Of a DNA stretch of 64,000 bases, positions 26,598 through 46,341 are shown one piece after another. The translations under genes and the position numbers were made by a program. The notes beneath the pieces are model-generated. The model ran no database searches and was not told the origin of the DNA. It saw nothing but the letters and a program-made list of their open reading frames with translations. The stretch spans positions 1 to 64,000 of the IMG/VR virus record IMGVR_UViG_3300033149_002674. The stretch is one strand, 5' to 3'. The stretch comes from a virus. Position 1 is the first letter of the stretch; every line of letters starts with the position of its first letter.

Positions 26598-27340
26598 GTG
26601 AGAAGAAAGATGTAATCACCTTAATGATGGTGACGTATAATAGGCTTGATTTAACTAAGAGAACAATTAAGTCACTACATGATAATACAAAGGTTCACTA
26701 CAATCTAGTAATCGTAGATAATGGCTCAGAGGATGGTACTGTTGAGTATCTGAATGAGCTAGCTGCAGAGCACGATAGCGTTCACCTCAATCTACTTCCG
26801 GAGAACAAGGGCATCGCTATTGGTCGTAACATAGCACTTAAGAAAGCTGTTGAGCTTGAGACGAACTGGTTCTGTACGATTGATAATGACGTAGAGGTCC
26901 CAGATGGTTGGCTTACAGAAGCTATTGACATCATGAAGGCCAACCCAAAGTACGCCATGATTGGTGTGAATATGGAGGGTGTCAAGTATCCCGTTGTGGA
27001 GCAGAATGGATTTAAGTTTCAGTCCAAGCCTAGGGGAAATCTAGGAACTGCTTGTATTGTATTCCAGTCTAAGCTTCAAAAGATGCTTGGATACTTCAGC
27101 ACAGAGTATGGACTTTATGGCGAAGAAGATGCTGATTATGGCATGAGAGCTAGGGTTTGCGGATTTGGACTCGGGTACATTGAAAGGATGGGAAATCACT
27201 TTGGTGTTGGTGAATTAGACCAAGGTGAGTATAGAGAATTCAAAGATGAGATGCATAAGAACAATTTAGCTAAGTTTAATGCTAATTGTGGCGCATATGC
27301 AAGGAGAGAGAAAAATCTATATTTCCCATACAAGGACTGA
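26594..27340 (+). CDS. Glycosyltransferase family 2
   Basis: A 248-residue GT-A enzyme with VITLMMVTYNRLDLTKRTI, VIVDNGSEDGTVEYL, PENKGIAIGRNIAL and FCTIDNDVEVPDGW (DND near residues 96-98, metal binding). A GEEDADYGMRARV motif follows, the equivalent of the family's ED..R catalytic region. These are all the landmarks of a soluble inverting GT2. It overlaps the upstream gene by ATGA, and the next gene starts on the base after its TGA. Confidence 0.88.
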   Translation: MSEKKDVITLMMVTYNRLDLTKRTIKSLHDNTKVHYNLVIVDNGSEDGTVEYLNELAAEHDSVHLNLLPENKGIAIGRNIALKKAVELETNWFCTIDNDVEVPDGWLTEAIDIMKANPKYAMIGVNMEGVKYPVVEQNGFKFQSKPRGNLGTACIVFQSKLQKMLGYFSTEYGLYGEEDADYGMRARVCGFGLGYIERMGNHFGVGELDQGEYREFKDEMHKNNLAKFNANCGAYARREKNLYFPYKD

Positions 27341-29335: not shown

Positions 29336-29343
29336 GGAAATAA

Positions 29344-31136: not shown

Positions 31137-31945
31137 GTTTAGAAGATATTAAAGCACCATCTAATGACAAGCTAATTAGCTTTTTCCATATACCTAAGAC
31201 AGCTGGCACAAACTTTACCTATGTAATTAAGAATAATTATAAGGGCCATATCATTGATGATAAAAAGTTTGAGGCTCTCGATAGGCAGACCAGGAAAAAG
31301 CTTTGCACATGGGGTCATGGTGGTCACTACAATGCTATCAATCATGATGCTGTTATGTTTGTGTTTCTAAGAGACCCTGTTGAGCGAGTGGTATCCCATT
31401 TTGTAGAGCATAAGGGAAATAGATACACAAACCCTAGCTTTACACTTGAAGAGATGTTTCTCAAGAGACCAGATATTTATCTTGGTGAAAAGCCTCCTAC
31501 ACCTAATGATCTAAAGAGAGCTGGTATCAATTCAGCACACTGGGGAAGAGATTTTTATTGTAGAGCACTTTCAGGACAAGGATACCTTAAGTTTGATCCA
31601 TGGAAGGTTACCGAAGAAGATAAGGATAATATTATATCTAACATGAAGGATAATAAGGTTGTTCTTCTAAACTCTGCAGGTAAAGAAATTGAAGTTCCTA
31701 CAGTCTTTGGAATCACTGAGAGGTTTGATGATTCACTTAAGCTTTTCCAAAAGGTAGCTGGCTGGCATACTATCAAGTATCAAGAGCTATCTAAGCGTAG
31801 AGCTTATAACCATGGCAAGAGAAGGTATAATGCTTCTGAAAATCTTCTTGCCGCAATTAAGAAGCATAACGCTTTTGATATAGAAATTTACGAAGAAGCT
31901 AAGAAGCTATTCGATAAGGAACTAGAACATTTTGGGATTAAGTAA
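31133..31945 (+). CDS. Sulfotransferase (carbohydrate-type)
   Basis: A 270-residue protein with the two PAPS-binding landmarks of the Sulfotransfer_2-like family: FFHIPKTAGTNF at residues 17-28 (5'-phosphosulfate loop, with K22 and T23) and FVFLRDPVERVVSHF at 76-90 (3'-phosphate motif, R80, S88). The family transfers sulfate from PAPS to sugar hydroxyls, using host-made PAPS in a case like this. No signal peptide or membrane anchor is seen, unlike the eukaryotic Golgi enzymes, so it should act in the cytoplasm. Its position between a GT2 and a methyltransferase suggests sulfation of the glycan made by this island; a protein tyrosine target cannot be excluded. Confidence 0.85.
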   Translation: MSLEDIKAPSNDKLISFFHIPKTAGTNFTYVIKNNYKGHIIDDKKFEALDRQTRKKLCTWGHGGHYNAINHDAVMFVFLRDPVERVVSHFVEHKGNRYTNPSFTLEEMFLKRPDIYLGEKPPTPNDLKRAGINSAHWGRDFYCRALSGQGYLKFDPWKVTEEDKDNIISNMKDNKVVLLNSAGKEIEVPTVFGITERFDDSLKLFQKVAGWHTIKYQELSKRRAYNHGKRRYNASENLLAAIKKHNAFDIEIYEEAKKLFDKELEHFGIK

Positions 31946-31952
31946 GGAACAA

Positions 31953-32849
31953 ATGTCAGAGGAAGATAAGAAAGAAATTAAGCTACATATTGGGTGTGGT
32001 ACCGTTTACCTTGAGGGATATGTAAACATTCATCCAGCACCAGATGGTCTTGCACCGCTATGTCCAGAAGATGTAGAGATTAATAAGACCACTGTTGATG
32101 AATATTATAAGACTGGGTTCTCTGAGCGCCCCAAGAAGCACATTGCAGACCTTGTAAGTACACTTGACGCTCTTCCAAGTAAGCTTGGGTATAGGCCTGG
32201 ATACCCAGGCTCTCAGAGTGGATATGTTTGGAATGATGGAGTATCTGAAAGTGTTGATAATCCAGTAGATGAAATCTGTATGTTCCATGTTCTTGAGCAT
32301 ATCCCAAAGTACGATCTTGATGATGCAGTTCGTAAGATTGCACTTATGCTTAAGCCAGGTGGACGCTTCCGTGTAGCTGTTCCTGACTTTGACGCAATCG
32401 TTCTTGAGTACGCTCAAAAGCTTCAGGAAGGTATATCTGAGGAAGATAAGGAGTGGTACTACCGCTTTGTTCATGGAACTCAAAAGGATATCTATTCACA
32501 TCACTACTGTGGATACAATAGACACAGGCTTGAAGAGCTTCTAAGACGTTTCGGCTTTGATAAGTTTGAAGATCTTCCTAATCAGAACTTTTATCCATCA
32601 GTTCATTTGATGGCGTACAAGGCTGAAGAAGTAAAGGTTGAGTATAATAATGATTTAGGTATAGCTGGAGATATCACAATAACTTCTGGCTCAGGTGGCG
32701 GCAATTATCTTGCATCAGATATTACATTTGGGTCGTCTTCAACCCCAACAGCAATTACAAGCACTTCCGGAAAAGGAATTGTTATAGATGAGGACGGCAA
32801 TACAGTTATTGAGGGCGATCTTCATGTTACAGGAAAACTAATAGTTTAA
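31953..32849 (+). CDS. Methyltransferase fused to a fibre-like C-terminal tail
   Basis: Start set at ATG 31953, which has TAAGGAAC just upstream; an in-frame TTG at 31932 lies inside the sulfotransferase and is less likely. The 298-residue product begins with KLHIGCGTVYLEGYVNI, the SAM-binding motif I of class I methyltransferases with a characteristic HIGCG, then ICMFHVLEHIPKYDLDDAVR, LKPGGRFRVAVPDFD and a C-terminal catalytic cap ending near residue 225. The last 65 residues are unrelated to the enzyme: Gly/Ser/Thr-rich, then GIVIDEDGNTVIEGDLHVTGKLIV-type text (24 residues, shown here as GIVIDEDGNTV and IEGDLHVTGKLIV), which resembles the GDFGISGKLTVDG modules of the fibre gene at 50930. 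The enzyme may therefore be tethered to, or act on, the fibre. Confidence 0.78.
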   Translation: MSEEDKKEIKLHIGCGTVYLEGYVNIHPAPDGLAPLCPEDVEINKTTVDEYYKTGFSERPKKHIADLVSTLDALPSKLGYRPGYPGSQSGYVWNDGVSESVDNPVDEICMFHVLEHIPKYDLDDAVRKIALMLKPGGRFRVAVPDFDAIVLEYAQKLQEGISEEDKEWYYRFVHGTQKDIYSHHYCGYNRHRLEELLRRFGFDKFEDLPNQNFYPSVHLMAYKAEEVKVEYNNDLGIAGDITITSGSGGGNYLASDITFGSSSTPTAITSTSGKGIVIDEDGNTVIEGDLHVTGKLIV

Positions 32850-32857
32850 GGAAAGAT

Positions 32858-33547
32858 ATGACAGAACTAGGATTAAACTTTCAGAATTGGGATGAGTTCT
32901 TTGATAAGATACCATTCACATTCTTTATGACATCACAAATTCAGAAGAAGTACATTGAAACAATCAAGGCTAACACACCTGACGGTGGTAAACTACTCGA
33001 AATTGCAGGTGGCTCTGGGTACACATCTGCCGTTGTTGCAGACGTTGTTAGAACCAAAAACGGTACTGTTACTTTCTCTGATCTTGAACAGACTTTGACT
33101 GATAAGGTTAAGGATAACTTCGATTCAATTGTGAATCTTGACTTCAAGGCAGCGGACGCTTTCAAGCTACCATTCGAGGATGATTCTTATGACGTTATCT
33201 TCCATCAGGGATTCCTTGAGCACTTCAGCGATGAAGACATCATCAAGTTCCTCCAGGAGCAAGCTCGTGTTGCTGAGAAGATTGTATTCGATGTACCAAA
33301 TGGTCGTCGTTGGAATAAGTATCAGGAGTTTGGTAACGAGCGCTTCCTGAGCCACAAGCAGTGGGTTCAGATTGCGAAGGATGCTGGGCTTCATGTTCAT
33401 TATCACACAGCACGCCGCTTCACTAATGGCTGGAAGAAATGGGTTCCAGTTGCTATTCAGAATTCAGAATGGTTTCACAGAAACTTCGGTGAGTCATCAA
33501 TTGTTGTATGCTCATCAATGCCTCTTAATGAGAGCATAGGTAAGTAA
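32858..33547 (+). CDS. Class I SAM-dependent methyltransferase
   Basis: A 229-residue protein with LLEIAGGSGYTSAVVADVV (motif I, the SAM loop), VTFSDLEQT (motif II acidic residue), AADAFKLPFEDDSYDVIFHQGFLEHF (motifs III/IV) and VAEKIVFDVPNGRRW. Size and order fit the ubiquinone/menaquinone-type and Methyltransf_11/25 group. The substrate cannot be read from sequence; the neighbouring glycan genes suggest a sugar. AAGGAAAGAT precedes ATG 32858. A strong terminator follows 22 bases after its stop, so it probably ends this transcription unit. Confidence 0.82.
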   Translation: MTELGLNFQNWDEFFDKIPFTFFMTSQIQKKYIETIKANTPDGGKLLEIAGGSGYTSAVVADVVRTKNGTVTFSDLEQTLTDKVKDNFDSIVNLDFKAADAFKLPFEDDSYDVIFHQGFLEHFSDEDIIKFLQEQARVAEKIVFDVPNGRRWNKYQEFGNERFLSHKQWVQIAKDAGLHVHYHTARRFTNGWKKWVPVAIQNSEWFHRNFGESSIVVCSSMPLNESIGK

Positions 33548-33569
33548 CTGTCGAGTTCATACTTCTCCG

Positions 33570-33598
33570 AGCCCTGCTATTTATAGCGGGGCTTTTTT
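33570..33598 (+). terminator. Rho-independent terminator inside the glycan island
   Basis: AGCCCTGCTA (33570-33579), loop TTTA, TAGCGGGGCT (33584-33593), then six T (33593-33598). Ten pairs, one G-T. The next start codon begins on the base after the T-run, so the GGGG of the 3' arm is the only SD-like sequence available to that gene. Confidence 0.85.
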
Positions 33599-34459
33599 AT
33601 GAAGATATCTCTAGTTATCTCTATTAAGAACAGGACCAAGTTATTCTCTAGGTCTATTAAAATGTACAATAAACAAACCATCCCCAAAGAAGATTGGGAG
33701 ATGGTTGTTGTCGATGATATGTCTGATGAAGATGTGTTGGGTACATTAAAGAAACATGCCAAGTTTAACTGGCAGTATATTAAGATGGATTCTAAGAAGA
33801 ATGACTTCCCTATTTATTGGGGGCCATCACTTTCAAACAACATAGGCTTCAAGTCTGCGAAGGGTGAGGTCTTGGTCATCACAGGGCCTGAAATGCTTAT
33901 GCAGGAAGACGCTCTGGAGATTTCTTATGAGACAGCGATGAAGGGTGTTGCGGCATACGGTCACGTTCTTCATTCTCATAATAAGTTTGTGAGGTTGATG
34001 GATTCAAACCCTGCAATGGAAGAGTATCCATTCAAGCGTTTGTTCGCTCTTCCAACGGCCAAGAATGGTTATCCGGATATCACTAAGGATAACTTCTACT
34101 GGTTTTGGACTGCGGTTAAGAAAGAAACCATCATCAACATGGGTGGGTGCGATGAAAATCTCATGAAGGGTATATGCGCTGACGATGATCTATTTGCAGA
34201 CAAAGCAAGAATGATTGGTTGCGAGCCAGTTCACGAGATGAGAGTTAAGGGTATTCATCAGGAGCACTTGACTGCAGATAAGGCTGACCCAAAAAGGATT
34301 CGTTGGAATCCAACCTGGGAAAAAGCAAGACATATAAACACTAAGTATTTAGAGGATTGGAGGGCAGACCCCAATCGCTCAGCTATTTCTAATGAGGGCA
34401 GGGACTGGGGTTCCGAAAAGCTTGTTATAGAGAGGGTTGAATCTAAGGAGACAAATTGA
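33599..34459 (+). CDS. Glycosyltransferase, GT2/galactosyltransferase-like
   Basis: A 286-residue GT-A protein: MKISLVISIKNRTKLFSRSI, EMVVVDDMSDEDVLGTL (nucleotide-binding pair), an ITGPEMLMQEDAL stretch in place of a typical DxD loop, and MGGCDENLMKGICADDDLFADKAR, which matches the C-terminal galactosyltransferase motif (GxDE..xGxxxEDxDL type). The start is unusual: ATG is placed immediately after the terminator T-run. No in-frame alternative retains the GT2 opening, so I keep it. It must be expressed by read-through or a promoter overlapping the preceding gene. The stop overlaps the next TTG start by four bases (TTGA). Confidence 0.82.
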   Translation: MKISLVISIKNRTKLFSRSIKMYNKQTIPKEDWEMVVVDDMSDEDVLGTLKKHAKFNWQYIKMDSKKNDFPIYWGPSLSNNIGFKSAKGEVLVITGPEMLMQEDALEISYETAMKGVAAYGHVLHSHNKFVRLMDSNPAMEEYPFKRLFALPTAKNGYPDITKDNFYWFWTAVKKETIINMGGCDENLMKGICADDDLFADKARMIGCEPVHEMRVKGIHQEHLTADKADPKRIRWNPTWEKARHINTKYLEDWRADPNRSAISNEGRDWGSEKLVIERVESKETN

Positions 34460-35454
34460 AGACAGCAGTAATTACAGGCATAACAGGGCAGACAGGTTCA
34501 TATCTCGCAGAGATCCTTTTAGATAAAGGATACAAGGTTTACGGTCTTCGTAGGCGTGCGTCTACTTTTAACACTGAGCGCATTGACCACGTACTAGAAG
34601 ACCCTCATGTTGATGATAGAGTAGAGCTAGTGTACGGAGATCTTGCGGACTCTTCGTCTATCATTTCGTTGGTGAACGATACCAAGCCGGAATTGTTCTT
34701 CAACATGGCAGCGCAGTCGCATGTTAGAGTCTCATTTGAGATTCCAGAGTACACATTCGACATTGATGCCACTGGTGTTGTTAGATGTCTTGATGCATTG
34801 CGCAGGTTCTCACCTGAAACTCGATTCGTACAGTCTTCTACATCAGAGCTGTACGGCTCAACGCCAGCTCCACAGGATGAGAGTACTCCATTCCATCCAA
34901 GATCTCCGTATGCAGCTGCAAAGATAGGCGGATACTGGGCTACGGTTAATTATAGAGAAGCATATGGCATGCACGCATCCAATTCCATCTCATTTAACCA
35001 TGAAGGACCACGCAGAGGCGGCACATTTGTGACTAAGAAGATCACTCAGGCAGCTGCACGCATCAAATTCGGTCTCCAGGATAAGCTGTATCTTGGAAAT
35101 CTTGATGCAAAGCGTGACTGGTCACATGCAAAGGACGTTGCAAGGGCTCAATACATGATTGCTACAGCTGATAAGCCCTGTGATTACGCAATTGGCTCTG
35201 GAGAATCGCATTCTGTGAAGGATTTCTTGCACTTGGTGTTTGATAAGATGGGTTTGGATGTTGAAAAGCACGTAGAATTCGACCCAAGGTACCTTAGGCC
35301 ATCAGAAGTTGACCATCTTGAGTGCAATCCAGCCAAGATCAAGTCTGCTTTGGGTTGGGAACCTGAATATTCCTTCGATAAACTTGTCGAGGAGATGGTT
35401 GAATACGACTTGGAATTAGCAAGGAAAGAAAAGCTACTTAAGGATAACTCATGA
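34456..35454 (+). CDS. gmd: GDP-mannose 4,6-dehydratase
   Basis: A 332-residue short-chain dehydrogenase/reductase of the extended type. It has the NAD(P) loop TGITGQTGSYL (residues 7-17), RRRAS with STFNTERIDH typical of GMD, the VQSSTSELYGS region (125-135) and the YAAAK catalytic pair Y152/K156. GMD converts GDP-mannose to GDP-4-keto-6-deoxymannose. The family is about 320-370 residues, so this is full length. TTG is the start (34456) with AAGGAG spaced correctly upstream. It is followed by GDP-fucose synthase with an ATGA overlap, the same two-step pair found in bacterial fucose operons. Confidence 0.9.
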   Translation: MKTAVITGITGQTGSYLAEILLDKGYKVYGLRRRASTFNTERIDHVLEDPHVDDRVELVYGDLADSSSIISLVNDTKPELFFNMAAQSHVRVSFEIPEYTFDIDATGVVRCLDALRRFSPETRFVQSSTSELYGSTPAPQDESTPFHPRSPYAAAKIGGYWATVNYREAYGMHASNSISFNHEGPRRGGTFVTKKITQAAARIKFGLQDKLYLGNLDAKRDWSHAKDVARAQYMIATADKPCDYAIGSGESHSVKDFLHLVFDKMGLDVEKHVEFDPRYLRPSEVDHLECNPAKIKSALGWEPEYSFDKLVEEMVEYDLELARKEKLLKDNS

Positions 35455-36380
35455 AGACAATTTTAGTAACAGGTGGTAATGGTTTCTTAGGTAAGCACCT
35501 AAAAGAGAAGTTTAGGAAGGCTAAGGCTCTTAATATTATCTATCCATCATCAAAAGAGGTTAATTTACTACGTCAAGATGCTGTCATGGACCTATTTGAG
35601 CGTGAAAGACCCGATTCAGTGCTCCATATGGCAGCAATTTGCGGCGGAATAGGTGCTAACAAGGAATCTCCAGCGGATTTCGTCCATCTGAACTCAAAAA
35701 TGACCTGTAACATCTTCGATGCGGTCCTTAAGTACGGAACTGAATCACTTTACACGCTTGGTTCCGTTTGTTCGTACCCAAAACACTGTCCAGTGCCTTT
35801 TCAGGAGGACGATTTGTGGAATGGGTACCCTGAAGAGACAAATGCTCCCTATGGAACCGCAAAACGACTTCAATTAGTCATGCAGCAGTCATTCATGCAG
35901 CAGTACGGCCTAAAAGGCGCTCATCTCATCCCTGTTAATATGTATGGCGAGCATGATCACTTCGATTTGGAGAAATCACACGTCATTCCAGCTCTCATTC
36001 GTAAATTTGTAGAAGCTAAGGAGAATGGCGACCCAAATGTGACTTGCTGGGGCACTGGCTCTGCAACAAGAGAGTTTTTGTATGCAGGTGATGCTGCAGA
36101 AGCAATATCATATGCTGTACTATCAAACTTCTCAAATCCTGAGCCAATTAACTTAGGTGTTGGTTATGATATCTCTATTAAAGATCTGGCTACTAAAATA
36201 TCTGATATAATAGGTTATGAAGGAGATATTATCTGGGACACAACTAAACCAGACGGTCAGCCTAAGCGAATGTTGGATGTATCACGGGCTGAGGAGCTAC
36301 TAGGATTTAAAGCTTCGACCTCTTTTGATGATGGATTGCGCAAGACCATTGAATGGTACATGTATAACCAAGTAGGATAA
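35451..36380 (+). CDS. fcl: GDP-L-fucose synthase
   Basis: A 309-residue protein with TGGNGFLG (7-14) for NADPH, LHMAAICGGIGANKESPADF (the GDP-fucose synthase signature region), LGSVCSYPKHCPVPF and the NAPYGTAKR block with Y134/K138. It carries out the 3,5-epimerisation and 4-reduction of GDP-4-keto-6-deoxymannose to give GDP-L-fucose. The usual length is about 310-320, so it is intact. It is coupled to gmd by ATGA, so the phage encodes both steps from GDP-mannose. The GDP-fucose would serve one of the neighbouring glycosyltransferases. Confidence 0.9.
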   Translation: MKTILVTGGNGFLGKHLKEKFRKAKALNIIYPSSKEVNLLRQDAVMDLFERERPDSVLHMAAICGGIGANKESPADFVHLNSKMTCNIFDAVLKYGTESLYTLGSVCSYPKHCPVPFQEDDLWNGYPEETNAPYGTAKRLQLVMQQSFMQQYGLKGAHLIPVNMYGEHDHFDLEKSHVIPALIRKFVEAKENGDPNVTCWGTGSATREFLYAGDAAEAISYAVLSNFSNPEPINLGVGYDISIKDLATKISDIIGYEGDIIWDTTKPDGQPKRMLDVSRAEELLGFKASTSFDDGLRKTIEWYMYNQVG

Positions 36381-36382
36381 TT

Positions 36383-37696
36383 ATGGGATTGATCTCAGTT
36401 AAAGAATTTGATTTTGCGGCTAAAACTAACAAGGCACAAGTAGAAGTGCAAGAGCCTGTTAAGGAGCCAGAATCGCAAGAAGACTCCGAAGAAGAGCTAA
36501 TAGACTATGTTCTTAAGAACAAAATCTCTGATTTCGTCATGGACGATGCGGAGGAAAAGTACGAAGAGGTTCCTATTGACTATGGCGCATTCAAGCCAAG
36601 GGGCAGGAAGTCAAACATGCTGCACAAGATTAAGAATACATATAAGTCAAAGCCTAGACTTCATAAGTATGAGGAAAATCTTCTGATTAAGCTAATGAAG
36701 GATTCACTTAAGTCTGGAGACCCTGAGTTTGTAGATAAGGTGAACGAGGCTGGACTTCATGCTATTAAGAACTCCAGAACATCAATTACTCATAATGATA
36801 GAACTCTTAAAAACATATGTCGAGAGCTTGTTGTAGATGAGTTCAATCAAAAGGTTGAGCCATCTATGTTGGTTGAGCTATCTAATAGGCTAAGGTCTAA
36901 TTCTGGGTCTCCTAATGATAGGGGAGCTTTAGAGTCATTATACTTATGGGATAAGTATAATCCAATATCTGATGAAGATAAGAAGCATATTGAAGAGTAT
37001 ACTGGACCAATGGGGTTGTCTACATCTGGAGTTAAGATGTCTGAGCCTGTTGATATAAAGGACGAAGAGTTGAAGATAGCGGTTATCAAGAATGCTAGTG
37101 CAACAGACCGTGGCGAAAAGACAGAGTTCATCGATAGAGATCCTGATATTGTTAAGGTTATGAATCATCTGACTGGCAGGGACGTTCCAAAGGAAACGGG
37201 ATTGCCTCCTGCTCAAATACCTGAGATCAAAAAGCCAGTAGTTAATAAGTCTACACTAAAAGATTCTCTTTCAGTTAGTGAAGCTGTTGACCTTTTGAAT
37301 AAAGCTAAGGAAAAAGAAATGCCTGAAGTTAAGATAGATGCAGATACGTTCGCTATGGGCGAGTGGAAAGAAGATATCAAAGAGATTAAGGATGACTTAA
37401 AGAAGAACATTAAGTCACAGGTTCGCTCTAGAACTTGGTCTTCAGATGAAGAGTGGTTTAACTCGCCTGAGGCTAAGGGTCAGCTAAGAGCTATGCCTTC
37501 TGAGCCTCCACCAAAGCCATCAGAACTTGTCCGTGAAGCGGTTGAGTCTAAGAAGGAAAACATCATGGAGATCCAGGAGAAAAATCTGGCAGAAGCACAT
37601 GCGAAGATGCTTGCGGCTCAAAGAGAGTATGCACAGCAGAAAAAGGTACTTAATGATTTGTACGAGTCATTTAATGTACCAACTATAGAAGAATAA
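36383..37696 (+). CDS. Hypothetical acidic, coiled-coil protein
   Basis: A 437-residue, highly charged protein with no recognised domain. The N-terminal 50 residues are rich in Glu (for example QEDSEEELIDYVLK); the middle (about 70-140) is Lys/Arg-rich and helical; the C-terminal 60 residues predict a coiled coil with heptads in KENIMEIQEKNLAEAHAKMLAAQREYAQQKK. No signal, membrane segment or catalytic motif. It starts after AGGATAATT between fcl and the RmlB-like gene; the sequence is unlike either, so it may be a structural or scaffold-type protein placed by chance in the sugar operon. Function unknown. Confidence 0.7.
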   Translation: MGLISVKEFDFAAKTNKAQVEVQEPVKEPESQEDSEEELIDYVLKNKISDFVMDDAEEKYEEVPIDYGAFKPRGRKSNMLHKIKNTYKSKPRLHKYEENLLIKLMKDSLKSGDPEFVDKVNEAGLHAIKNSRTSITHNDRTLKNICRELVVDEFNQKVEPSMLVELSNRLRSNSGSPNDRGALESLYLWDKYNPISDEDKKHIEEYTGPMGLSTSGVKMSEPVDIKDEELKIAVIKNASATDRGEKTEFIDRDPDIVKVMNHLTGRDVPKETGLPPAQIPEIKKPVVNKSTLKDSLSVSEAVDLLNKAKEKEMPEVKIDADTFAMGEWKEDIKEIKDDLKKNIKSQVRSRTWSSDEEWFNSPEAKGQLRAMPSEPPPKPSELVREAVESKKENIMEIQEKNLAEAHAKMLAAQREYAQQKKVLNDLYESFNVPTIEE

Positions 37697-37703
37697 GGAT
37701 AAT

Positions 37704-38666
37704 ATGAGTAAGAAAAAGATTCTTGTTACAGGGACCGGTGGGTTCATATTTTCAAACTTTATTAGGAGAGCTTTCCATAATAAGGAGAACTTTAACTTTG
37801 TCTCGCTAGATAAAATTAGGAAGTCTCATACGCTTCACAATATCTACATTAACAAGTCTCACCAATTTTATCCGGTAGACGTTTCAGACCCACACTTCGT
37901 AAACGTAGTGTTTGAAACTGAGCGTCCTGATATCGTAATTCATGGTGCTGCCGAGTCTTTCGTTGATTCATCGATTGATAATGCAGCACCATTTATTACA
38001 TCAAATGTAATGGGAACTCAGGTCATCATTGATGCCTGTGTAAAGTGGGGAGTTGAAAAGCTTGTTTACATATCCACTGACGAGGTGTACGGCCATCTTA
38101 CAGATGAGTCAGCTCCTGCTTGGACTGAGGATTCACCTCTCAATCCAAGAAACCCATACGCAGCTTCTAAGGCTTCAGGAGAGCTTTTGGTTAAGGCTGC
38201 TCATGAGACACACGGGCTAACTTACAACATCACCAGATCTTGTAACAACTACGGCCCATGGCAGGACCCAGAGAAGTTCTTACCAAAGATGATTATGAAG
38301 ATTGTTTCTGGCGAGAAGGTTCCAGTTTATGGACAGGGCCTTCAGATTAGAGACTGGATGCACGTCTTTGATAACTGCGAAGCTATAATGAAGGTAGTTA
38401 AAGAAGGTAAGGATAATGAAACTTATAATATCGCAGCTAATCAAGAACTTCCAAATATAGAAGTATTTCAAAGAGTTTGCAATACTTTAGGTAAAGGTCA
38501 TGATTTAATTGAATTTGTTAAGGATAGGCCAGGACATGACTTTAGATATTCTATAGATGCAACAAAGTTAAAAAACTTAGGTTGGGAACCAGAATTTAAG
38601 TTTAATGATGGTATAGTACAAACTGCACAATGGTATCTTAATAATCAGTGGTTCTTTAGACTTTAA
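37704..38666 (+). CDS. RmlB-like NDP-sugar 4,6-dehydratase
   Basis: A 320-residue extended SDR with ILVTGTGGFIFSNFI (NAD loop; note TGTGGFIFS where relatives normally have a TG.AGFIGS pattern), IVIHGAAESFVDSSI, YISTDEVYGH (T125, D126, E127, the catalytic triplet of dTDP-glucose 4,6-dehydratase), YAASK (Y152/K156) and VKDRPGHDFRYSID near the C-terminus, a very characteristic RmlB motif. It would dehydrate an NDP-hexose to a 4-keto-6-deoxy sugar. Whether the donor is dTDP-glucose or another is not settled. There are no RmlA, RmlC or RmlD genes here, so later steps would need host enzymes. Confidence 0.82.
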   Translation: MSKKKILVTGTGGFIFSNFIRRAFHNKENFNFVSLDKIRKSHTLHNIYINKSHQFYPVDVSDPHFVNVVFETERPDIVIHGAAESFVDSSIDNAAPFITSNVMGTQVIIDACVKWGVEKLVYISTDEVYGHLTDESAPAWTEDSPLNPRNPYAASKASGELLVKAAHETHGLTYNITRSCNNYGPWQDPEKFLPKMIMKIVSGEKVPVYGQGLQIRDWMHVFDNCEAIMKVVKEGKDNETYNIAANQELPNIEVFQRVCNTLGKGHDLIEFVKDRPGHDFRYSIDATKLKNLGWEPEFKFNDGIVQTAQWYLNNQWFFRL

Positions 38667-38706
38667 TGGTCGAGAGCCATGAACCGATAAACATTAAAAT
38701 GTAGTT

Positions 38707-38715
38707 TGATAATAT
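38707..38715 (+). promoter_or_regulatory. Candidate extended -10 promoter before tubulin gene
   Basis: TGATAATAT fits an extended -10 (TGn then TAATAT). The -35 region at the proper distance (ATAAAC) is poor. It lies 16 bases before ATG 38731, which has AGGAG correctly placed. Together with the terminator at 40142 it would make the tubulin gene a single-gene unit. Confidence 0.4.
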
Positions 38716-38730
38716 CAGACAGGAGAATTT

Positions 38731-40116
38731 ATGAGTGTTACTAGTACTAAAGAAGATGTTGATAGAGAGAATCTCGCAGACGATGTTTCTGATGAAAAAG
38801 TAGAGAAATCTCAAGAAGAAATTGATAATGAGGTTCTTGCCCGCCTGCAGGCTCGCAAGGCTAAGGCTGAGGCTAAAAACGAACCACAAGGAGAAGAAGT
38901 GCCACCAAAGATAGTAGATGAGAAGACCCGTTCCATTTCCATGGGTGTTATTGGTTCCGGTCAGGCTGGCTCACGTATTGCTGAGTGTTTTTACAAGCAG
39001 GGCTATGACACTGTTGTTGTGAACACTGCACAGCAGGATCTTCAGTTCATTGATGTTCCAGAGTCTAATAAGCTCTTGCTTGAGCATGGACTTGGCGGTG
39101 CTGCTAAGGACTTGGACATGGGAGCTGATGCTGCCGAAGCTTATAGGGATTCAATTAATGAAATTGTCAATGCAAAACTTGGACACAATCAGATGCTTCT
39201 CTTCTGTACCTCCTTGGGCGGCGGCTCTGGTGCTGGATCAGCTGAGACTATTGTTAACATTCTTTCTAGCCTTGAATGCCCAGTAGCGGTCATCACAGTC
39301 CTTCCACAGACTTCTGACGACGCTCAGACAAAGCACAACGCAATTGTAACTCTTTCCAAGTTCACCAAGATGGCTCAGGATAGAGTTATTGATAACCTTA
39401 TCGTTGTTGACAATGCTAAGATCGAGTCCATCTATTCAGATGTTGGTCAGATGCAGTTCTTCGGTGTATCCAATAAGGCAATCACTGATCCTATCGATGC
39501 GTTCAACACACTTTCATCCAAGCCATCTTCTGTGAAGAGCCTTGACCCAACTGAGTTTGGTAAGCTTTTCACTGACGGCCAGGGTCTCACAACCTACGGT
39601 TACATGGACGTTCCTAACTATGATGACGTTGATGCGCTCGCAGGAGCAATCATCGACAACCTTGACGGAACACTTCTAGCTGGCGGCTTCGACCTTAAGC
39701 AGACTCGTTATGCTGGCGTTATCTTCGCTGCATCTCAGAAGGTTTGGGAGCGTATTCCACAGGCTGCAACCAACTACGCAATGGCAATGGTTAATGAGGC
39801 ATGCGGAACTCCACTCGGCGTTTTTAAAGGTATCTACACCATTGATACCGATGAGGATGTTGTAAAGGTTTACTCTATGTTCTCAGGTCTTGGTCTTCCA
39901 GAAGATCGTGTTAAGCAGCTCAAGTCTGAGGCTAAGGAGCGCATGAAGCAGTCCGACGCCAAGGATGAGAGCAGAAACCTCTCACTTAAGCTTGATGCTG
40001 AAGATGCTGGAATGTCAGAGACAGACCGTATCAAGAAGAGAGTCAATGCGAAGAAGTCCAAGACTGGCGGTCTTGGAAAGCTCAATCGACTAGCAATCGA
40101 TAGACGCCGTAAGTAA
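38731..40116 (+). CDS. FtsZ/tubulin-like GTPase
   Basis: A 461-residue protein. After a charged 65-residue N-terminal extension comes a tubulin/FtsZ GTPase core: GVIGSGQAGSRIAECF (72-87, first glycine loop), VVVNTAQQDL (95-104), HGLGGAAKDLDMGADAAEAY (119-138), and the tubulin signature GGGSGAGSAE (163-172). N296, D298, D299 and D301 sit in VPNYDDVDAL, where FtsZ has its catalytic T7 loop. The C-terminal tail is basic and may be flexible. FtsZ-type proteins form GTP-dependent filaments; phage examples include PhuZ, which positions the phage nucleus, and TubZ, which partitions DNA. It is longer than FtsZ because of the N-terminal extension. Flanked by its own promoter-like site and terminator, suggesting strong separate expression. 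Confidence 0.86.
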   Translation: MSVTSTKEDVDRENLADDVSDEKVEKSQEEIDNEVLARLQARKAKAEAKNEPQGEEVPPKIVDEKTRSISMGVIGSGQAGSRIAECFYKQGYDTVVVNTAQQDLQFIDVPESNKLLLEHGLGGAAKDLDMGADAAEAYRDSINEIVNAKLGHNQMLLFCTSLGGGSGAGSAETIVNILSSLECPVAVITVLPQTSDDAQTKHNAIVTLSKFTKMAQDRVIDNLIVVDNAKIESIYSDVGQMQFFGVSNKAITDPIDAFNTLSSKPSSVKSLDPTEFGKLFTDGQGLTTYGYMDVPNYDDVDALAGAIIDNLDGTLLAGGFDLKQTRYAGVIFAASQKVWERIPQAATNYAMAMVNEACGTPLGVFKGIYTIDTDEDVVKVYSMFSGLGLPEDRVKQLKSEAKERMKQSDAKDESRNLSLKLDAEDAGMSETDRIKKRVNAKKSKTGGLGKLNRLAIDRRRK

Positions 40117-40141
40117 TAAGGCCTAATCGCAGAGGGTAGAG

Positions 40142-40167
40142 GGGCTGGGCATTGCCTGGCCCTTTTT
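40142..40167 (+). terminator. Terminator after tubulin-like gene
   Basis: GGGCTGGGC (40142-40150), loop ATT, GCCTGGCCC (40154-40162), followed by five T. Nine pairs, two of them G-T. It is 25 bases after the stop and just before the helicase gene's AGGAG. Confidence 0.82.
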
Positions 40168-40188
40168 ATTTGCACCAATTGCAGGAGA

Positions 40189-41676
40189 ATGATGATCAAG
40201 ATAATAAAATACGACAATGTATGCCAGATATTAAACGAAGACGATGACACGAGACGCAAAGCACTAGACCTCCATCTTTCATATAAGATCCAAGGTGCAG
40301 AACATTCAAAGGCCTTCAAAGGTTACATCAACCAGAGAGGCGAAGAGGTAACCTGGGATGGGCGCAAACATCTACTTAAGTCTAATCTTAAGTTTCCTAT
40401 TGGGCTCATTCAACGTGTCTGTGAGTTCTATGACGCCAGAGACGTGGAGTACGAACTGGATGACCAAAGAAGATTGGTTACAGAAAAGAACCCAATAGAT
40501 CTTCTCCCTATTCTAAAAGAGGGAGGAAAGATTCCTCGTGACTACCAGATGAAAGCTGTCGAGAACGCTGCATCTGTGAACAGAGGAATTATCCGCATCG
40601 CTACAGGCGGCGGTAAAACGATAGTCGCAGCTCTACTTACAGCTGCCTTAGGTAAGCCTACCATGATTTACGTCATCGGTAAAGACCTTTTGTACCAAAT
40701 CCACGGCTTATTTTCGTCCCTCTTCGATGAGCCAATCGGACTTATCGGAGACGGAAAGTGCGAAATCCATAGGATAAACGTCGCTACGATATGGTCCGTA
40801 GGAAAGTCTTTAGGAATCAAAGACTCTACAACAGACGAAGATTCTACGAAGGAAAAGGATATCTCCAAGGATAAATTCAGGGAGATAAAGACAATGCTTC
40901 TAGATTCTAGAGTCCATATTCTAGACGAGTGTCATTTGGCTGCGTGTGAAACTGTGCAAGCTATTTCCCATCACGTCAAAGCAGAGCACTTTTACGGTAT
41001 GTCTGCTTCTCCTTGGCGAGACGATGGTTCGGATATGCTTATCGAATCAGTTTTAGGCAGGAAGGTCGTAGATATCTCTGCGAAATATCTTGTTGAAAAA
41101 GGCTTCCTCGTAAAGCCAGCAATCAGATTCTTGGCTGTTCCACCTTACACTGGAGCCAAAAAAGCAGCGTACAAAACTGTCTACAAGAATTACATCACTG
41201 TTAACGCAGCTCGAAATAACATGATCTGCACCGCAGCTGAGAAACTTGTCGAGCAGGGCTTCAAGACTCTCGTACTTTTCAAGACGAAAGCTCACGGGCA
41301 GAGATTACACGAAATGATTTCTGAGAAAGTATCCTGTGAGATTCTAAACGGTGACGACAAGTTCGAAGTCAGGAAAGAAGTTTGCGACAAGCTAAACAAT
41401 GGAGAGATAGACTGCATTGTGGCTTCTACCATCTTTGACATCGGAGTAGACCTTCCATCTTTATCTGCGCTTGTAATTGGCGGAGGTGGAAAATCTTCTG
41501 TTCGAGCCCTCCAGCGCGTGGGCCGTGTAATTAGGAAGCATCCTGGAAAGACAATCGCTCCAGTTATCGACTTCGCAGATCAAGCACCGTATCTGTTAAA
41601 TCACTCACTAATGAGAAAAGAAATTCTAGAAGAGGAATTCGAGGTAGAATGGCCGCAAGAAAAGCAAGAACAATAA
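40189..41676 (+). CDS. Superfamily 2 DNA helicase, UvsW-like
   Basis: A 495-residue helicase. Motifs in order: IPRDYQ (Q-motif, about 115-120), ATGGGKT (Walker A, 138-144), DECH (246-249, Walker B), SAS (272-274, motif III), and QRVGR (442-446, motif VI). An N-terminal region of about 110 residues precedes the core, as in T4 UvsW, whose N-terminal domain binds DNA. In T4, UvsW unwinds branched DNA and R-loops and helps switch from origin- to recombination-dependent replication. A role in replication or repair is supported by the nearby helicase loader and DnaB-like genes. AGGAG precedes an ATGATG start; the first ATG is at 40189. Confidence 0.85.
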   Translation: MMIKIIKYDNVCQILNEDDDTRRKALDLHLSYKIQGAEHSKAFKGYINQRGEEVTWDGRKHLLKSNLKFPIGLIQRVCEFYDARDVEYELDDQRRLVTEKNPIDLLPILKEGGKIPRDYQMKAVENAASVNRGIIRIATGGGKTIVAALLTAALGKPTMIYVIGKDLLYQIHGLFSSLFDEPIGLIGDGKCEIHRINVATIWSVGKSLGIKDSTTDEDSTKEKDISKDKFREIKTMLLDSRVHILDECHLAACETVQAISHHVKAEHFYGMSASPWRDDGSDMLIESVLGRKVVDISAKYLVEKGFLVKPAIRFLAVPPYTGAKKAAYKTVYKNYITVNAARNNMICTAAEKLVEQGFKTLVLFKTKAHGQRLHEMISEKVSCEILNGDDKFEVRKEVCDKLNNGEIDCIVASTIFDIGVDLPSLSALVIGGGGKSSVRALQRVGRVIRKHPGKTIAPVIDFADQAPYLLNHSLMRKEILEEEFEVEWPQEKQEQ

Positions 41677-42308
41677 GCTTGGTTCCGGATAAGGTGAAGA
41701 AGCCTTCAGGTTTGAAGAAGGATGGAACACCTAACGCTTCTTGGAGGAAGTTTAAGGAACGCTTAGATTCGTACACCGATACTCCAGTTGCAAACTGGGG
41801 ACCGGACCAAGCTTTAGGTCATCTTTTTAAGAGATACACAGATCATTTCGATATTGATTTCTCGCTCTCATACTCTGGCCCTCCATCCAAGTGCTCAGAG
41901 ATTTACTGCACGAAGCGTATGATGTCTATGCTTGGTGGAGAGAATCCAGATATGAAGATGGTTAAGGAGTTTATTGATTGGTCTTTTGACTCAGTAATCA
42001 TTCCTAAGAAGCTTCAGATAGAGTCACTTGCATTCTTCTTCGCTGCAAAGCTCGTAAGAGAATTCAAGGCCAAGTACAAGAAGGCTAAGACTATTACAAG
42101 AGCTACTAAGCTGCCTGTTCTTATCGAGCAGATTGCAGAAGACCACGGCTTGGATGATTCCATCACTACTTATGGTGAACTAGCGTTCGCTAAGAAGGCA
42201 GTAGATGCAGATCCAGAGAATGGCTCTTACAAGATTTATCATGAGTTTTTCACATCCCTCACTCAGGAAGGGTTTGATTACTCAGTCCTACAATCATTAG
42301 AAGGATAA
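41649..42308 (+). CDS. Hypothetical basic protein in replication block
   Basis: A 219-residue protein without a family I can name. The N-terminal 45 residues are strongly basic (MAARKARTISLVPDKVKKPS); the rest is helical and mixed, with a long Lys-rich helix near LVREFKAKYKKAKTITRATK. It starts 28 bases inside the helicase gene and is followed by the Sm-like gene with one spare base. DNA binding is plausible from the charge and its place between a helicase and a helicase loader, but not shown by any motif. Confidence 0.65.
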   Translation: MAARKARTISLVPDKVKKPSGLKKDGTPNASWRKFKERLDSYTDTPVANWGPDQALGHLFKRYTDHFDIDFSLSYSGPPSKCSEIYCTKRMMSMLGGENPDMKMVKEFIDWSFDSVIIPKKLQIESLAFFFAAKLVREFKAKYKKAKTITRATKLPVLIEQIAEDHGLDDSITTYGELAFAKKAVDADPENGSYKIYHEFFTSLTQEGFDYSVLQSLEG

Positions 42309-42309: not shown

Positions 42310-42738
42310 ATGCAGCCCCAGCAGGGTTCTTACGTAAAGGTTTGTTTTAATAATGGGTTAGTTGAATGCGGAACTGTAGCATCTTGGAATGATACCGAGA
42401 TAGTTCTGGAAACAATTGACTCTATGATAGTTATTAAGAATCCACAGGATATCTTTATCTATAAGATATTCAAGGACAAGCCTGACCATAAGCCGCCAGT
42501 ATCTGATGTCTATGTAGATAAGGAGCTGACGCCAACAGAATATGTTCGAGACCCTGCCCTGCGAGCCCTCAATATCTACGAACTAAGAAAAGAAGTTCAA
42601 GCAGAGGAAGAACAGAGAGCTAGAGAAAAGCTCACGGAATTTAGACCGTCAGGCAACGGAGTACCAGTACAATATGGAAACATTGAATTACTCAGAGACA
42701 AATCCATTCTTCGGGATACCGCAGAAGAAGATAAATAA
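42310..42738 (+). CDS. Small protein with Sm/Hfq-like N-terminal half
   Basis: A 142-residue protein. Residues about 5-55 follow the alternating strand pattern of an Sm fold: YVKVCFNNGLVECGTVASW, then a turn, TEIVLETIDSMIVIKNPQDI and FIYKIF, with the typical NG turn and closing strands. The C-terminal half is acidic and helical (RKEVQAEEEQRARE). Sm/Hfq proteins form rings that bind RNA; a phage copy could act on phage or host RNA, but the fold call rests on pattern alone and the usual RNA-contact residues cannot be confirmed. It overlaps the loader gene by 65 bases, which suggests a coupled unit. Confidence 0.55.
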   Translation: MQPQQGSYVKVCFNNGLVECGTVASWNDTEIVLETIDSMIVIKNPQDIFIYKIFKDKPDHKPPVSDVYVDKELTPTEYVRDPALRALNIYELRKEVQAEEEQRAREKLTEFRPSGNGVPVQYGNIELLRDKSILRDTAEEDK

Positions 42739-43396
42739 TGCAATAGAAGATATTTACAATGTTCATCTAAACCCAAAGACGGGTAAGATAACAACAGACG
42801 GAGCCAAACTCCTAGAAGTGATCCACAGGTATGCAAGCGCAAATATACCTGTGGATTATTGGTTTCGTGAGATGGATAAGTTCGAGGGTGATGACTCTCT
42901 TGTAAGGTCGTACAAAGAGATGACCGCTTCTGTAAAGAAGTCTTACGACGATGGTAAGAACTACTGCTTTGCTGGAGCCCACGGTAGAGGCAAGACAATG
43001 ACCGCTTGCTGCATGCTGAAGCGTGTAGTTGAAACTGGTAAGTATAACGCTCTGTACGTTAACCTTACAGATATCGTTAACCTCATGGCCTCTTACTCAT
43101 CAGAAGACAGAGAGGTCAAGTCAGCGGCCAGAAAGCTTCTGCTATCTGTAGACTTCCTGGTTATTGATGAGTTCGATTCAAGGTTCATGGGAACTGATAA
43201 CGCTACTGACCTTTTCGGTCGTATGCTTGAGCCTGTTCTACGTTCTAGAATTCAGAATAAGCTCCCCACAATTTTTTGCACCAATAACACCGAGCCAGAC
43301 TCTCTATTCAATGGCGCTCTTAAGCAGAGCTTCAAGTCACTCATGCAGAGAGTTAAGACTGTAAACATCCTCGGTACAGATTTCAGGAAGAAATAA
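42674..43396 (+). CDS. DnaC/IstB-like AAA+ helicase loader
   Basis: A 240-residue AAA+ protein. The Walker A motif is GAHGRGKT (101-108), Walker B is FLVIDEFD (161-168), and a sensor-1 like IFCTNN lies at 200-205, with an Arg-containing segment (LEPVLRSRIQNKLP) before it. The N-terminal 90 residues carry the partner-binding helices. Members load the replicative helicase onto DNA. It directly precedes the DnaB-like gene with a one-base overlap (TAATG), the classical loader-helicase pairing. The start lies 65 bases inside the Sm-like gene; a weak GGAG is 12 bases away, so the start may be coupled to that gene. Confidence 0.85.
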   Translation: METLNYSETNPFFGIPQKKINNAIEDIYNVHLNPKTGKITTDGAKLLEVIHRYASANIPVDYWFREMDKFEGDDSLVRSYKEMTASVKKSYDDGKNYCFAGAHGRGKTMTACCMLKRVVETGKYNALYVNLTDIVNLMASYSSEDREVKSAARKLLLSVDFLVIDEFDSRFMGTDNATDLFGRMLEPVLRSRIQNKLPTIFCTNNTEPDSLFNGALKQSFKSLMQRVKTVNILGTDFRKK

Positions 43397-44835
43397 TGGC
43401 AGACATCGATTACAATATCCTTAAGGTCCTTGTTACGGACCAAACTGCAGGCATGGATTTCGTCTGCAACAATGACGTATCTCTCTTCGACTTCGCTATT
43501 CGTGACGAAGCGAAGATGATTTTCGACTTCGTTAAGACATACAAGACGGTTCCTACCAAGAGAACTCTTATCGGTAGGTATGCTGAATCTCCTCAAGACC
43601 TGGAGCGTATTGATAAGCTCTGGAAAGATATCGAGGAGCACCAGTACGATACGAAGGACTACAAGTTTGACCTAGATAACATGAAGGAGCGCTTTAAGAA
43701 GCGTTCTGTTAAGTCTATCTCTTCAGCTATGACTGAGAAGATGGAGCAAGGACTAGAGCCTGATGTTATCCTCAAGGATGTAGCTCTAAGACTTCAGCAA
43801 GCCTCTGTTGTTAATGAGGGACGCTCTCATATCCAGATGTCAGCTGGTGACTACATCGAAGAGTTCAAGGATAGGTATGAGTCCAAGAAGAACTCTGATG
43901 GTGAGATATCAGAGATCAAGACTGGCTATTCCATGCTTGATTCTGTTACTGGCGGGCTATCACCAGCAGAGCTTGTTGTTATCGGTGGTGAAACTAACGC
44001 TGGTAAGTCCATGCTTCTCAATAACATGGCTGTCCAGATGTGGATGCAGGAAAATACTCTTGACACTGATCCAGAGGAGTTTAAGAAGGGGTATTCAATT
44101 CTATACTTCTCTCTTGAGATGCCTTATGCAGACTGCTTCGATAGGTTCCTAGCTAGAGTTGCAGAGATACCTCAGCGTTCAATTAGAGATGCTGTGCTTG
44201 ATGAAGACCAGCTTGAGCGCAAGGCTAAGGCTCTTAAGTTCATTGATGAGTATCAGAAGGCTGGCAATCACTTCAATATCGTAGACGTTCCAAGAAACGT
44301 GACGATTGAAGAAGTTGAGCTTAGATATCAGGATGCTCTGCTTCAGTTCCGTCCAGATGTGGTTGTAGTTGACTACATGGGTCTTATGCATGACCCAGCT
44401 AAGGCTAAGGAGCAGGACTGGTTGAAGATGGGTGCTATTGCCGCATCTCTTCACGAGTTCTCCAGAGCTTATGACTGCGTAATGCTAACAGCTGTACAGC
44501 TTACTGATATCAAGCGTGGCTCTAAGACTAAGGGTGAGCAGGATGAGTCTCAGAAGGTTGGCGTTCACAGAATTGGACGTTCATCTCACATCATGCACCA
44601 CGTTAATATCGGCATTCAGATTGAGACCAGATTGAATGAAAGGTCTCTTCCTGATATGAGATATCATGTTATCAAGAACCGTAAGGGTCCGCTTGGTCAG
44701 GGTAATATGATCAAGAACTTTGAGTGCGCTTCTCTTTATGATGTTCCTTATGTGGATGATACTCCATCTGGAGATGATGTATCTGAGAATATTGAGGATC
44801 TGATCAAAAAGGTCAGAGATGCCAACGAAGGATAA
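43396..44835 (+). CDS. DnaB-like replicative helicase
   Basis: A 479-residue protein with the DnaB arrangement: a helical N-terminal domain, a linker helix around residues 100-140, and a RecA-fold core with GGETNAGKS (197-205, Walker A), YFSLEMPYADCFDRFL (the 'SLEM' motif, E241 catalytic), VVVVDYMGLM (Walker B, D326) and LTAVQL (motif H4-like). Full length for the family. It should unwind the phage replication fork 5' to 3' as a hexamer, loaded by the product of the adjacent gene. No primase domain is fused. Its 3' end overlaps the next small gene by 17 bases. Confidence 0.9.
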   Translation: MADIDYNILKVLVTDQTAGMDFVCNNDVSLFDFAIRDEAKMIFDFVKTYKTVPTKRTLIGRYAESPQDLERIDKLWKDIEEHQYDTKDYKFDLDNMKERFKKRSVKSISSAMTEKMEQGLEPDVILKDVALRLQQASVVNEGRSHIQMSAGDYIEEFKDRYESKKNSDGEISEIKTGYSMLDSVTGGLSPAELVVIGGETNAGKSMLLNNMAVQMWMQENTLDTDPEEFKKGYSILYFSLEMPYADCFDRFLARVAEIPQRSIRDAVLDEDQLERKAKALKFIDEYQKAGNHFNIVDVPRNVTIEEVELRYQDALLQFRPDVVVVDYMGLMHDPAKAKEQDWLKMGAIAASLHEFSRAYDCVMLTAVQLTDIKRGSKTKGEQDESQKVGVHRIGRSSHIMHHVNIGIQIETRLNERSLPDMRYHVIKNRKGPLGQGNMIKNFECASLYDVPYVDDTPSGDDVSENIEDLIKKVRDANEG

Positions 44836-45049: not shown

Positions 45050-45238
45050 ATGTCTAAATACGAAACAGTAGCAAAAGCTATAAGATTAGAGGTTGACGAA
45101 TCTAAGGATGATGTTTATATTATCTTCAAGATAGTTGACGAACGCTTTAAACAAAAGGTTCGAGCGGACTGGAAGGAGGATATCGAAGTTAAACTGGTTA
45201 ATAAAGAACTCGTTAAGGAAATTGATGCCACTATATGA
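45050..45238 (+). CDS. Small hypothetical protein
   Basis: A 62-residue, charged, mostly strand/helix protein (YETVAKAIRLEVDESKDDVYI; shown up to 20 residues: YETVAKAIRLEVDESKDDVY). No motif or membrane segment. It starts three bases after the previous stop (TAAAATATG) and overlaps the zinc-ribbon gene by 14 bases, placing it in the same polycistron. Confidence 0.65.
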   Translation: MSKYETVAKAIRLEVDESKDDVYIIFKIVDERFKQKVRADWKEDIEVKLVNKELVKEIDATI

Positions 45239-45536
45239 TTACAGATGCAAAAACTGCGGGCACACATTTGAAGCCCTACATAAGATAGCTGACCCAGGAC
45301 CGTCAGAATGTCCAGAATGCGGACATAAAGAGGTAGGGAAGCTTATTTCAGCTGTACATGGCAAAGTTGAGCTAACGGGACACGAGCTTACAGCTAAGAT
45401 TAAGGAAGACGCTAAGAAGCTTAAGGCTGAGTCCGCTACTAACGAAAAAGTTAGAGCTAACCTCGTAGGAGAGGATAAGTACCAAGCGAATGTGGTAATG
45501 GACGATAAAATTCGCAAAGAAATCGGAAAGGAATGA
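45225..45536 (+). CDS. FmdB-type zinc-ribbon protein
   Basis: Start chosen at ATG 45225, because MPLYDYRCKNCGHTFE is the standard beginning of FmdB-family proteins; an in-frame start at 45135 would overlap the previous gene by over 100 bases. The 103-residue product has a zinc ribbon from C8, C11, C29 and C32 (CKNC and CPEC). The C-terminal 60 residues are Lys/Glu-rich and helical. FmdB-like proteins are small putative regulators; in phage they may contact nucleic acid or polymerase. The exact function is not known for the family. Confidence 0.8.
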   Translation: MPLYDYRCKNCGHTFEALHKIADPGPSECPECGHKEVGKLISAVHGKVELTGHELTAKIKEDAKKLKAESATNEKVRANLVGEDKYQANVVMDDKIRKEIGKE

Positions 45537-45690: not shown

Positions 45691-46341
45691 ATGAGTAATG
45701 TTAGCGATGAAGAAGCAGAGAAACTATTGCAGGAATTTGTTACACTTAGAGACAGGTGTGTTAAGTCAAAGTCCAAGTCCCTACGTTTAAAGTACGATAG
45801 GTGCAAGCAGACCTGCGCAGAAAAATTCGATTACATAGTGAAGAATAAGGTTAGGAAGTACCGCAACTTCTCTAACTATGATGACCTTCTTCAAGACGGC
45901 AGACTAGCTCTGATGTTAGCTTTAGATTCATATAAGCTAAATCAGGGCTCTTGGTTTTGGTGGGCTAATCAATATGTCAAAACTAAGGTATCTAGAGAGG
46001 CGAATAGGCACTCCACCATAAAGATACCAATCAAGCAGACTAAGAACATTCTCCCATACAAGCTATCTCAGATGCCAGTAATTGCTGACACGTCAGCTTC
46101 TGCTCTTGAGAGTATTGAGGTTGTTGAGAATACAAGACTTGTTCATGGGGCTATCTCTAAACTTTCGCCAATTCAGCGTAGAGTTATTGAGATGTATTTT
46201 GAGATAGGCTTTAAGGGAGTTGAGAAATCTTCCATATCTAAGATTTGTGAAGAGCTTGATATATCTCGTAAGGACTGTGTAAAAATACTATCTCAGGCTA
46301 AGAGGTCTCTAAAAGAGAATTTAGAGCATATTAGAGTATAA
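45691..46341 (+). CDS. Sigma-70-like RNA polymerase factor
   Basis: A 216-residue compact sigma factor. Region 2 runs about 47-115: FDYIVKNKVRKYRNFSNYDD, LLQDGRLALMLALDSY, SWFWWANQYVKTKVSREANR, with the core-binding and -10 recognition helix order. Region 4 spans about 157-210: LSPIQRRVIEMYFEIGF, ISKICEELDISRKDCVKILS, QAKRSLKENL, a helix-turn-helix. Region 3 is short, and region 1.1 is absent. T4 gp55 and related late sigma factors are similar in size. It would redirect host RNA polymerase to phage promoters, possibly those with the TGATATATA or ATATAAAGT motifs seen here. This is the only transcription factor I can call in the window. Confidence 0.82.
   Translation: MSNVSDEEAEKLLQEFVTLRDRCVKSKSKSLRLKYDRCKQTCAEKFDYIVKNKVRKYRNFSNYDDLLQDGRLALMLALDSYKLNQGSWFWWANQYVKTKVSREANRHSTIKIPIKQTKNILPYKLSQMPVIADTSASALESIEVVENTRLVHGAISKLSPIQRRVIEMYFEIGFKGVEKSSISKICEELDISRKDCVKILSQAKRSLKENLEHIRV

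Follow-up and report, generated by a model that had tools for sequence, protein, structure and literature searches.

What kind of tubulin-like protein is encoded in this viral DNA, and what might a phage use it for? The stretch that we analyzed (64,000 nucleotides [nts], here called the window) is part of a virus record of 67,970 bases. The gene in question is a single intact open reading frame (ORF) with an ATG start at 38731 and a stop codon that ends at 40116, preceded by an AGGAG ribosome-binding site. The product of 461 amino acids (aa) matched the Pfam families Tubulin (PF00091; E value, 3e-16; 60.6 bits against a cutoff of 33) and TubZ-like_C (PF22453; E value, 1e-6; 29.3 bits against a cutoff of 26). 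Codon usage is unremarkable, and Rfam and tRNA scans gave no match. The ORF is real, well beyond chance, and its product is an intact TubZ-type GTPase of the tubulin/FtsZ superfamily.

Table 1. Positions of the tubulin gene, its motifs, and the neighboring genes in the window
Feature	Position	Strand	Basis
Nucleotide-sugar epimerase/dehydratase	37704..38666	+	Upstream of tubulin gene; epimerase-family gene upstream in most relatives
Weak extended -10 candidate, TGATAATAT	38707..38715	+	Sequence
TubZ-type tubulin/FtsZ-superfamily GTPase, 461 aa	38731..40116	+	PF00091, PF22453, AF2 fold match, 71 relative loci
Charged N-terminal extension, residues 1-66	38731..38928	+	Alignment, model
T1 nucleotide loop GSGQAG, residues 75-80	38953..38970	+	Alignment
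T4 tubulin signature GGGSGAG, residues 163-169	39217..39237	+	Alignment
T6 motif VVDNAK, residues 225-230	39403..39420	+	Invariant, 53/53
T7 catalytic loop LDPTEF, residues 271-276	39541..39558	+	Homology to FtsZ VDFADV region
NYDDVD, residues 296-301, not T7	39616..39633	+	Alignment, profile alignment
Predicted long C-terminal helix, TubZ-type H11, residues 391-418	39901..39984	+	AF2 model, fold alignments
Basic C-terminal tail, last 25 residues	40039..40113	+	Net charge, +9
Intrinsic terminator hairpin, U-rich 3' arm	40138..40166	+	13-bp hairpin after tubulin gene
UvsW-like helicase	40189..41676	+	Conserved downstream neighbor
Conserved helical protein without assigned function	41649..42308	+	AF2 pLDDT 92, no clear PDB match
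Conserved small protein without assigned function	42310..42738	+	Conserved context
DnaC-like helicase loader	42674..43396	+	Profile match, conserved context
DnaB-like replicative helicase	43396..44835	+	Profile match, conserved context
FmdB-like small protein	45135..45536	+	Match, conserved context
Phage sigma factor	45691..46341	+	Match, conserved context

Conservation was counted in an alignment of 53 sequences. Invariant in all of them are G72, G75, G77, G80, N98, T99, D103, the GGG at 163 to 165, D197, N203, VVDNAK, N248, and D272. An earlier note on this DNA had described the GxGQxG and GGGSGAG motifs as intact, as they are, and had suggested that the protein may polymerize and hydrolyze GTP; judged from its motifs and predicted fold, a polymerizing GTPase is indeed likely. 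The same note took NYDDVD to be a T7-like loop, which proved mistaken. The T7 loop is L271-D272-P273-T274-E275, in which position 275 is acidic in all 53 sequences (E in 48 and D in 5), and profile alignment places D272 on D209 and E275 on D212 of FtsZ (residue numbers counted by hand). LDPTEF matches the T7 loop of TubZ in the profile alignment; the FtsZ T7 synergy loop, NxDFADV, is not present, its acidic positions being kept but the motif otherwise differing. NYDDVD lies about 20 residues after LDPTEF and is not conserved in its second half. Nor is the protein closer to FtsZ in motif detail, as had been thought by eye. The T1 form GxGQxG is that of the TubZ and CetZ references, whereas those of FtsZ have GGGG or GGCG, and the C-terminal domain, sequence, fold, and profile comparisons all point to TubZ.

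A charged N-terminal extension, put at 65 residues in the note, is real: it has 66 residues, of which 45% are charged, and is kept in the relatives at lengths of 36 to 77 residues. At the other end of the protein, the last 25 residues carry a net charge of +9 (family mean, +5.9) and finish in a D-R-R-K-type motif in 51 of the 53 sequences. The tip of the TubZ tail is the binding site for TubRC and TubY (PMC5322520), and by analogy the basic tail is a good candidate for a cargo handle. In one relative (L054:6591-8000), the tubulin gene carries an in-frame intein of 470 aa with LAGLIDADG-type motifs, which sits directly after GSGQAG (GSGQAG/C...HN/S) and ahead of a nearly invariant serine. Inteins prefer conserved active-site positions, and so an intein at the T1 loop is consistent with an important nucleotide site.

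An AF2 model built from 53 sequences had a mean pLDDT of 79.5 and exceeded 90 over most of the core. The N-terminal extension, which is mostly disordered in the model, and the tail were of low confidence except for helices at residues 33 to 48 and 430 to 444. When the model was searched with Foldseek, the top 22 matches were all TubZ chains. VIA-align gave Z scores of 40.6 and 39.3 against two TubZ structures (root mean square deviation [rmsd], 2.5 and 2.7 over 343 and 361 residues), followed by CetZ2 (37.2), TubZ of phage c-st (33.0), and FtsZ (32.9 and lower). Only the TubZ and CetZ alignments extend through the C-terminal helix; those with TubZ end at residues 404 to 430, and most of those with FtsZ end near 387 to 399. 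Thus, the model predicts a feature of the TubZ family, a long C-terminal helix followed by a low-confidence tail. Sequence comparisons agreed. The best match among solved structures was TubZ/RepX (residues 66 to 410), followed by TubZ-Bt, and most FtsZ matches were restricted to the GTPase half. With hhalign, the E value was 1.6e-47 over 354 columns for TubZ and 5.9e-15 for FtsZ; the match to the PhuZ profile (E value, 1e-11; 190 columns) was much weaker than that to TubZ. The NCBIfam ftsZ equivalog score of 64.6 bits did not reach the cutoff of 295.2. We therefore rejected assignment to FtsZ on the basis of the equivalog score, the reach of the alignments at the C-terminal helix, the profile comparison, and the position of T7.

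Among characterized proteins, the nearest are the TubZ/RepX proteins of Bacillus plasmids (PDB 4ei7, 2xka, and 2xkb; type III partition), to which the two highest Z scores belong. They share with the phage protein the fold, the TubZ-like C-terminal domain, the long C-terminal helix, and the T7 position, but identity is about 22%, the phage protein has its long N-terminal extension, and the phage gene lacks an upstream TubR or centromere repeats and adjoins UvsW/DnaB as a core gene. TubZ of Clostridium phage c-st (PDB 3v3t and 4xcq) is also phage-borne and has the TubZ fold (Z scores, 32.4 and 33.0) but is 18 to 19% identical; it is part of a plasmid-prophage partition system (PMC7950403). (TubZ proteins of phage c-st and of virulence plasmids were taken into the comparison as solved structures only.) PhuZ of the nucleus-forming jumbo phages is likewise a tubulin of large lytic phages but differs in its weak profile match and separate clade. 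CetZ (Haloferax; PDB 4b45) shares the GxGQ-type T1 and is close in fold but is archaeal. FtsZ is similar in the GTPase domain, but its alignments stop before the C-terminal helix and the score is far under the equivalog cutoff. The Pontibacillus megaplasmid gene for a TubZ-like protein (L106:2498-3577), the plasmid match with the best E value to the window protein, adjoins a gene for a single-stranded DNA-binding protein and has no upstream TubR-like gene.

In a tree that combined 18 phage sequences with 18 references, the huge-phage proteins formed one clade (support, 100/99), apart from FtsZ (100/99) and PhuZ (100/100); the distinct lineage that the earlier note had thought possible is thus firm. 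The best tree joined this clade to TubZ with support of 75/79, but topology tests did not reject joining it with FtsZ (P = 0.197) or PhuZ (P = 0.181). A sister relationship to TubZ is therefore favored by the profile and fold comparisons, and the tree alone does not settle the sister group. That the gene is a recently acquired host FtsZ, a case that the note had also raised, is exceedingly improbable, although a database homologue is automatically annotated as FtsZ. The protein is 22% identical to Escherichia coli FtsZ over 179 residues (E value, 0.15), its clade has deep branches, and no close cellular relative turned up in two pattern scans of 84,980 cellular genomes. In addition, the tubulin and terminase trees of 13 phages agree (Mantel r = 0.95; 0 of 2,000 permutations), which indicates vertical inheritance, and the equivalog score, already given, is far too low.

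Scans of IMG/VR found 71 relative loci on viral contigs, 34 to 59% identical in the alignment, many of them on contigs of 330 to 481 kb. When distant members were used as seeds, the scan gave back almost the same loci, which suggests that the family is nearly closed at that sensitivity. We also gathered loci through the neighboring gene, uvsW, so that the count would not be limited to the sequences sought. The tubulin gene was present, 1.3 to 6.8 kb upstream of uvsW, in all 78 of the loci with enough upstream sequence, a count that includes some near-copies and leaves out 88 weaker UvsW matches. PF00091 found one clear copy per long contig, with a subthreshold second match in one contig. In this clade of uncultured huge phages, the tubulin gene is thus a core gene. 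We could not place the clade close to any cultured phage, since the terminase from one relative shares only about 26% identity with those of named phages. A tblastn search of the INPHARED phages came back empty even at an E value of 10, which is odd for that limit; we take it only as the lack of a close relative there. A search for the T4 Gp23 capsid protein (0/18) was uninformative since it gave no match anywhere.

The family is already in the databases: A0A6J5RW92 of an uncultured Caudovirales phage (BFVD) is 52% identical and clearly belongs to it, but the automatic name, FtsZ, should be corrected to TubZ-type; our searches turned up no study of this homologue. Huge-phage surveys refer to "tubulin homologues (PhuZ)" (PMC7162821), and two FtsZ/tubulin types are named in a comparison of jumbo phages (PMC7824862). 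We found no description of the present TubZ-type lineage in the open-access papers searched.

The gene order epimerase, TubZ, UvsW, 41649 protein, 42310 protein, DnaC-like loader, DnaB, FmdB, and sigma factor is kept in nearly all loci that are long enough, with insertions in some. The 41649 protein, kept in 47 loci, is nearly all helical in its model; the best VIA-align Z score was 4.6, which is at noise level, and the fold is not recognizable as TubR-like. No DNA-binding adaptor was identified; this conserved neighbor has no recognizable fold. The small 42310 protein, for which we found no family, is conserved in 38 loci, where it follows the 41649 protein and precedes the helicase loader. 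In three relatives, the UvsW genes (L059:9669-12338, L061:9490-12171, and L069:9624-12176) encode about 850 to 890 aa and have an apparent intein at the Walker A motif (GSGK or GGGK/C...HN/T).

The note proposed that the tubulin gene has its own transcription unit, set apart on both sides. On the 3' side, the clear terminator that had been noted is present, and a hairpin in this position was also seen by eye in many relatives. The hairpin in the window has a folding energy that is ordinary for its composition (z = -1.3), and so the case for a terminator is its architecture. The extended -10 proposed on the 5' side fared less well: TGATAATAT is a poor match, and transcription would start within the ribosome-binding site. 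A scan for sigma-70 sites found fewer than in shuffled sequences. A better element, TGATATA, occurs upstream of the gene in 18 of 52 relatives versus 1.0 in shuffled sequences, an excess inflated by relatedness and by the upstream stop codon, and is absent from that position in the window. A separate transcription unit is thus plausible on the 3' side and unproven on the 5' side. Because the terminator, and inserted genes in relatives, separate tubZ from uvsW, their linkage does not imply cotranscription.

Genes for a nucleus, partition, and lysogeny were sought in 17 records, that of the window and those of 16 long relatives; the contigs may be incomplete, and profile searches could miss diverged proteins. 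The chimallin profile matched none of the 17 (the control, 201phi2-1, itself in the profile, gave 1e-253), nor did PF00623 for the beta' subunit of multisubunit RNA polymerase (control found), the integrase family (bacterial controls matched), or a profile of the TubR position in six plasmids (which matched 3/3 plasmid controls, themselves in the profile). ParA was found in a control plasmid and in none of the 16 long relatives. The lack of integrase, ParA, and plasmid-type TubR in the long relatives favors a lytic role over plasmid partition.

The reading that we prefer, and to which we give about an even chance, is that, during lytic growth and with no chimallin nucleus, replicating phage genomes are positioned or moved by a GTP-driven, TubZ-like filament by way of its conserved basic C-terminal tail. 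The protein would bind GTP in its intact T1-T6 pocket, D272 and E275 of the T7 loop would complete the pocket of the neighboring subunit, and the subunits would polymerize head to tail with GTP, hydrolyzing it at their interface; the conserved residues and the superfamily argue strongly for GTP-driven polymerization. The moving filament may then position or carry replicating genomes, a replication compartment, or packaging capsids within the host, with the tail as the cargo handle, either directly on DNA or through an adaptor. That it moves phage DNA or capsids is suggested with moderate confidence by the kinship to TubZ, the tail, and the linkage to replication genes; genomes as the cargo would follow from gene neighborhood and that kinship. 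Moderate confidence also attaches to lytic timing, given the lack of integrase, ParA, and TubR, and to a filament that works without a chimallin nucleus, given the negative searches.

The kinship to TubZ could instead mean type III TubRZC partition, in which the genome would be segregated as a low-copy plasmid in a pseudolysogenic or plasmid-prophage state, as in c-st and the Bacillus plasmids. The closest family is indeed plasmid and phage TubZ, the basic tail resembles that of TubZ, and no other partition ATPase (ParA) was found. However, six of seven plasmid references have a gene of about 100 codons immediately before tubZ, in the TubR position, whereas the gene directly upstream here encodes an epimerase, and the TubR-position profile matched no phage record. 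The tubulin gene is flanked by gaps of only 64 and 72 bp, no tubC-type array of centromere repeats was found there or nearby, and integrase was lacking. We consider partition unlikely. Jumbo phage tubulins studied so far accompany chimallin nuclei (PMC10299810), and the present gene is also found in huge phages, which would fit a PhuZ-like spindle serving a nucleus-like shell too diverged to recognize. The negative chimallin search excludes only chimallins of the known family, but the beta' subunit was also lacking and the protein is closer to TubZ than to PhuZ, making a hidden shell quite unlikely.

Finally, the protein might act on the host, coassembling with or sequestering FtsZ so as to block or redirect division and enlarge the cell. 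The phage protein and FtsZ have the GTPase fold in common, and huge phages would gain from large host cells. Against this are the low identity to E. coli FtsZ, the TubZ-type C-terminal domain, a tail that by eye is unlike the C-terminal peptide of the FtsZ references, and a fixed linkage to replication genes that gives no hint of division. Interference with division is thus very unlikely.

Previous work linked jumbo-phage tubulin to the phage nucleus and multisubunit RNA polymerase (PMC7824862, PMC10299810), and about 66% of the phages that encode chimallin also have PhuZ (PMC10299810). In contrast, the present tubulin was universal in the sampled loci of a clade in which neither nucleus genes nor that polymerase was detected, and it travels with replication genes. 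If, as in our preferred reading, it moves phage DNA, then positioning by tubulin needs no nucleus, and TubZ can work without its usual TubR. We tentatively suggest, with slightly less than even confidence, that it represents a separate phage-tubulin lineage besides PhuZ and c-st TubZ, a huge-phage core gene that is spindle- or partition-like and lytic, without chimallin nucleus or TubR.

Other parts of the window also deserve mention. Adjoining the replication module, 22558-38666 has glycosyltransferase and nucleotide-sugar epimerase matches. A 990-aa ORF (18638-21610) contains a dockerin type I/EF-hand-like calcium-binding stretch, which is unusual for a phage, and a 725-aa ORF (58485-60662) has concanavalin A/laminin G-like domains and perhaps encodes a host-binding protein.
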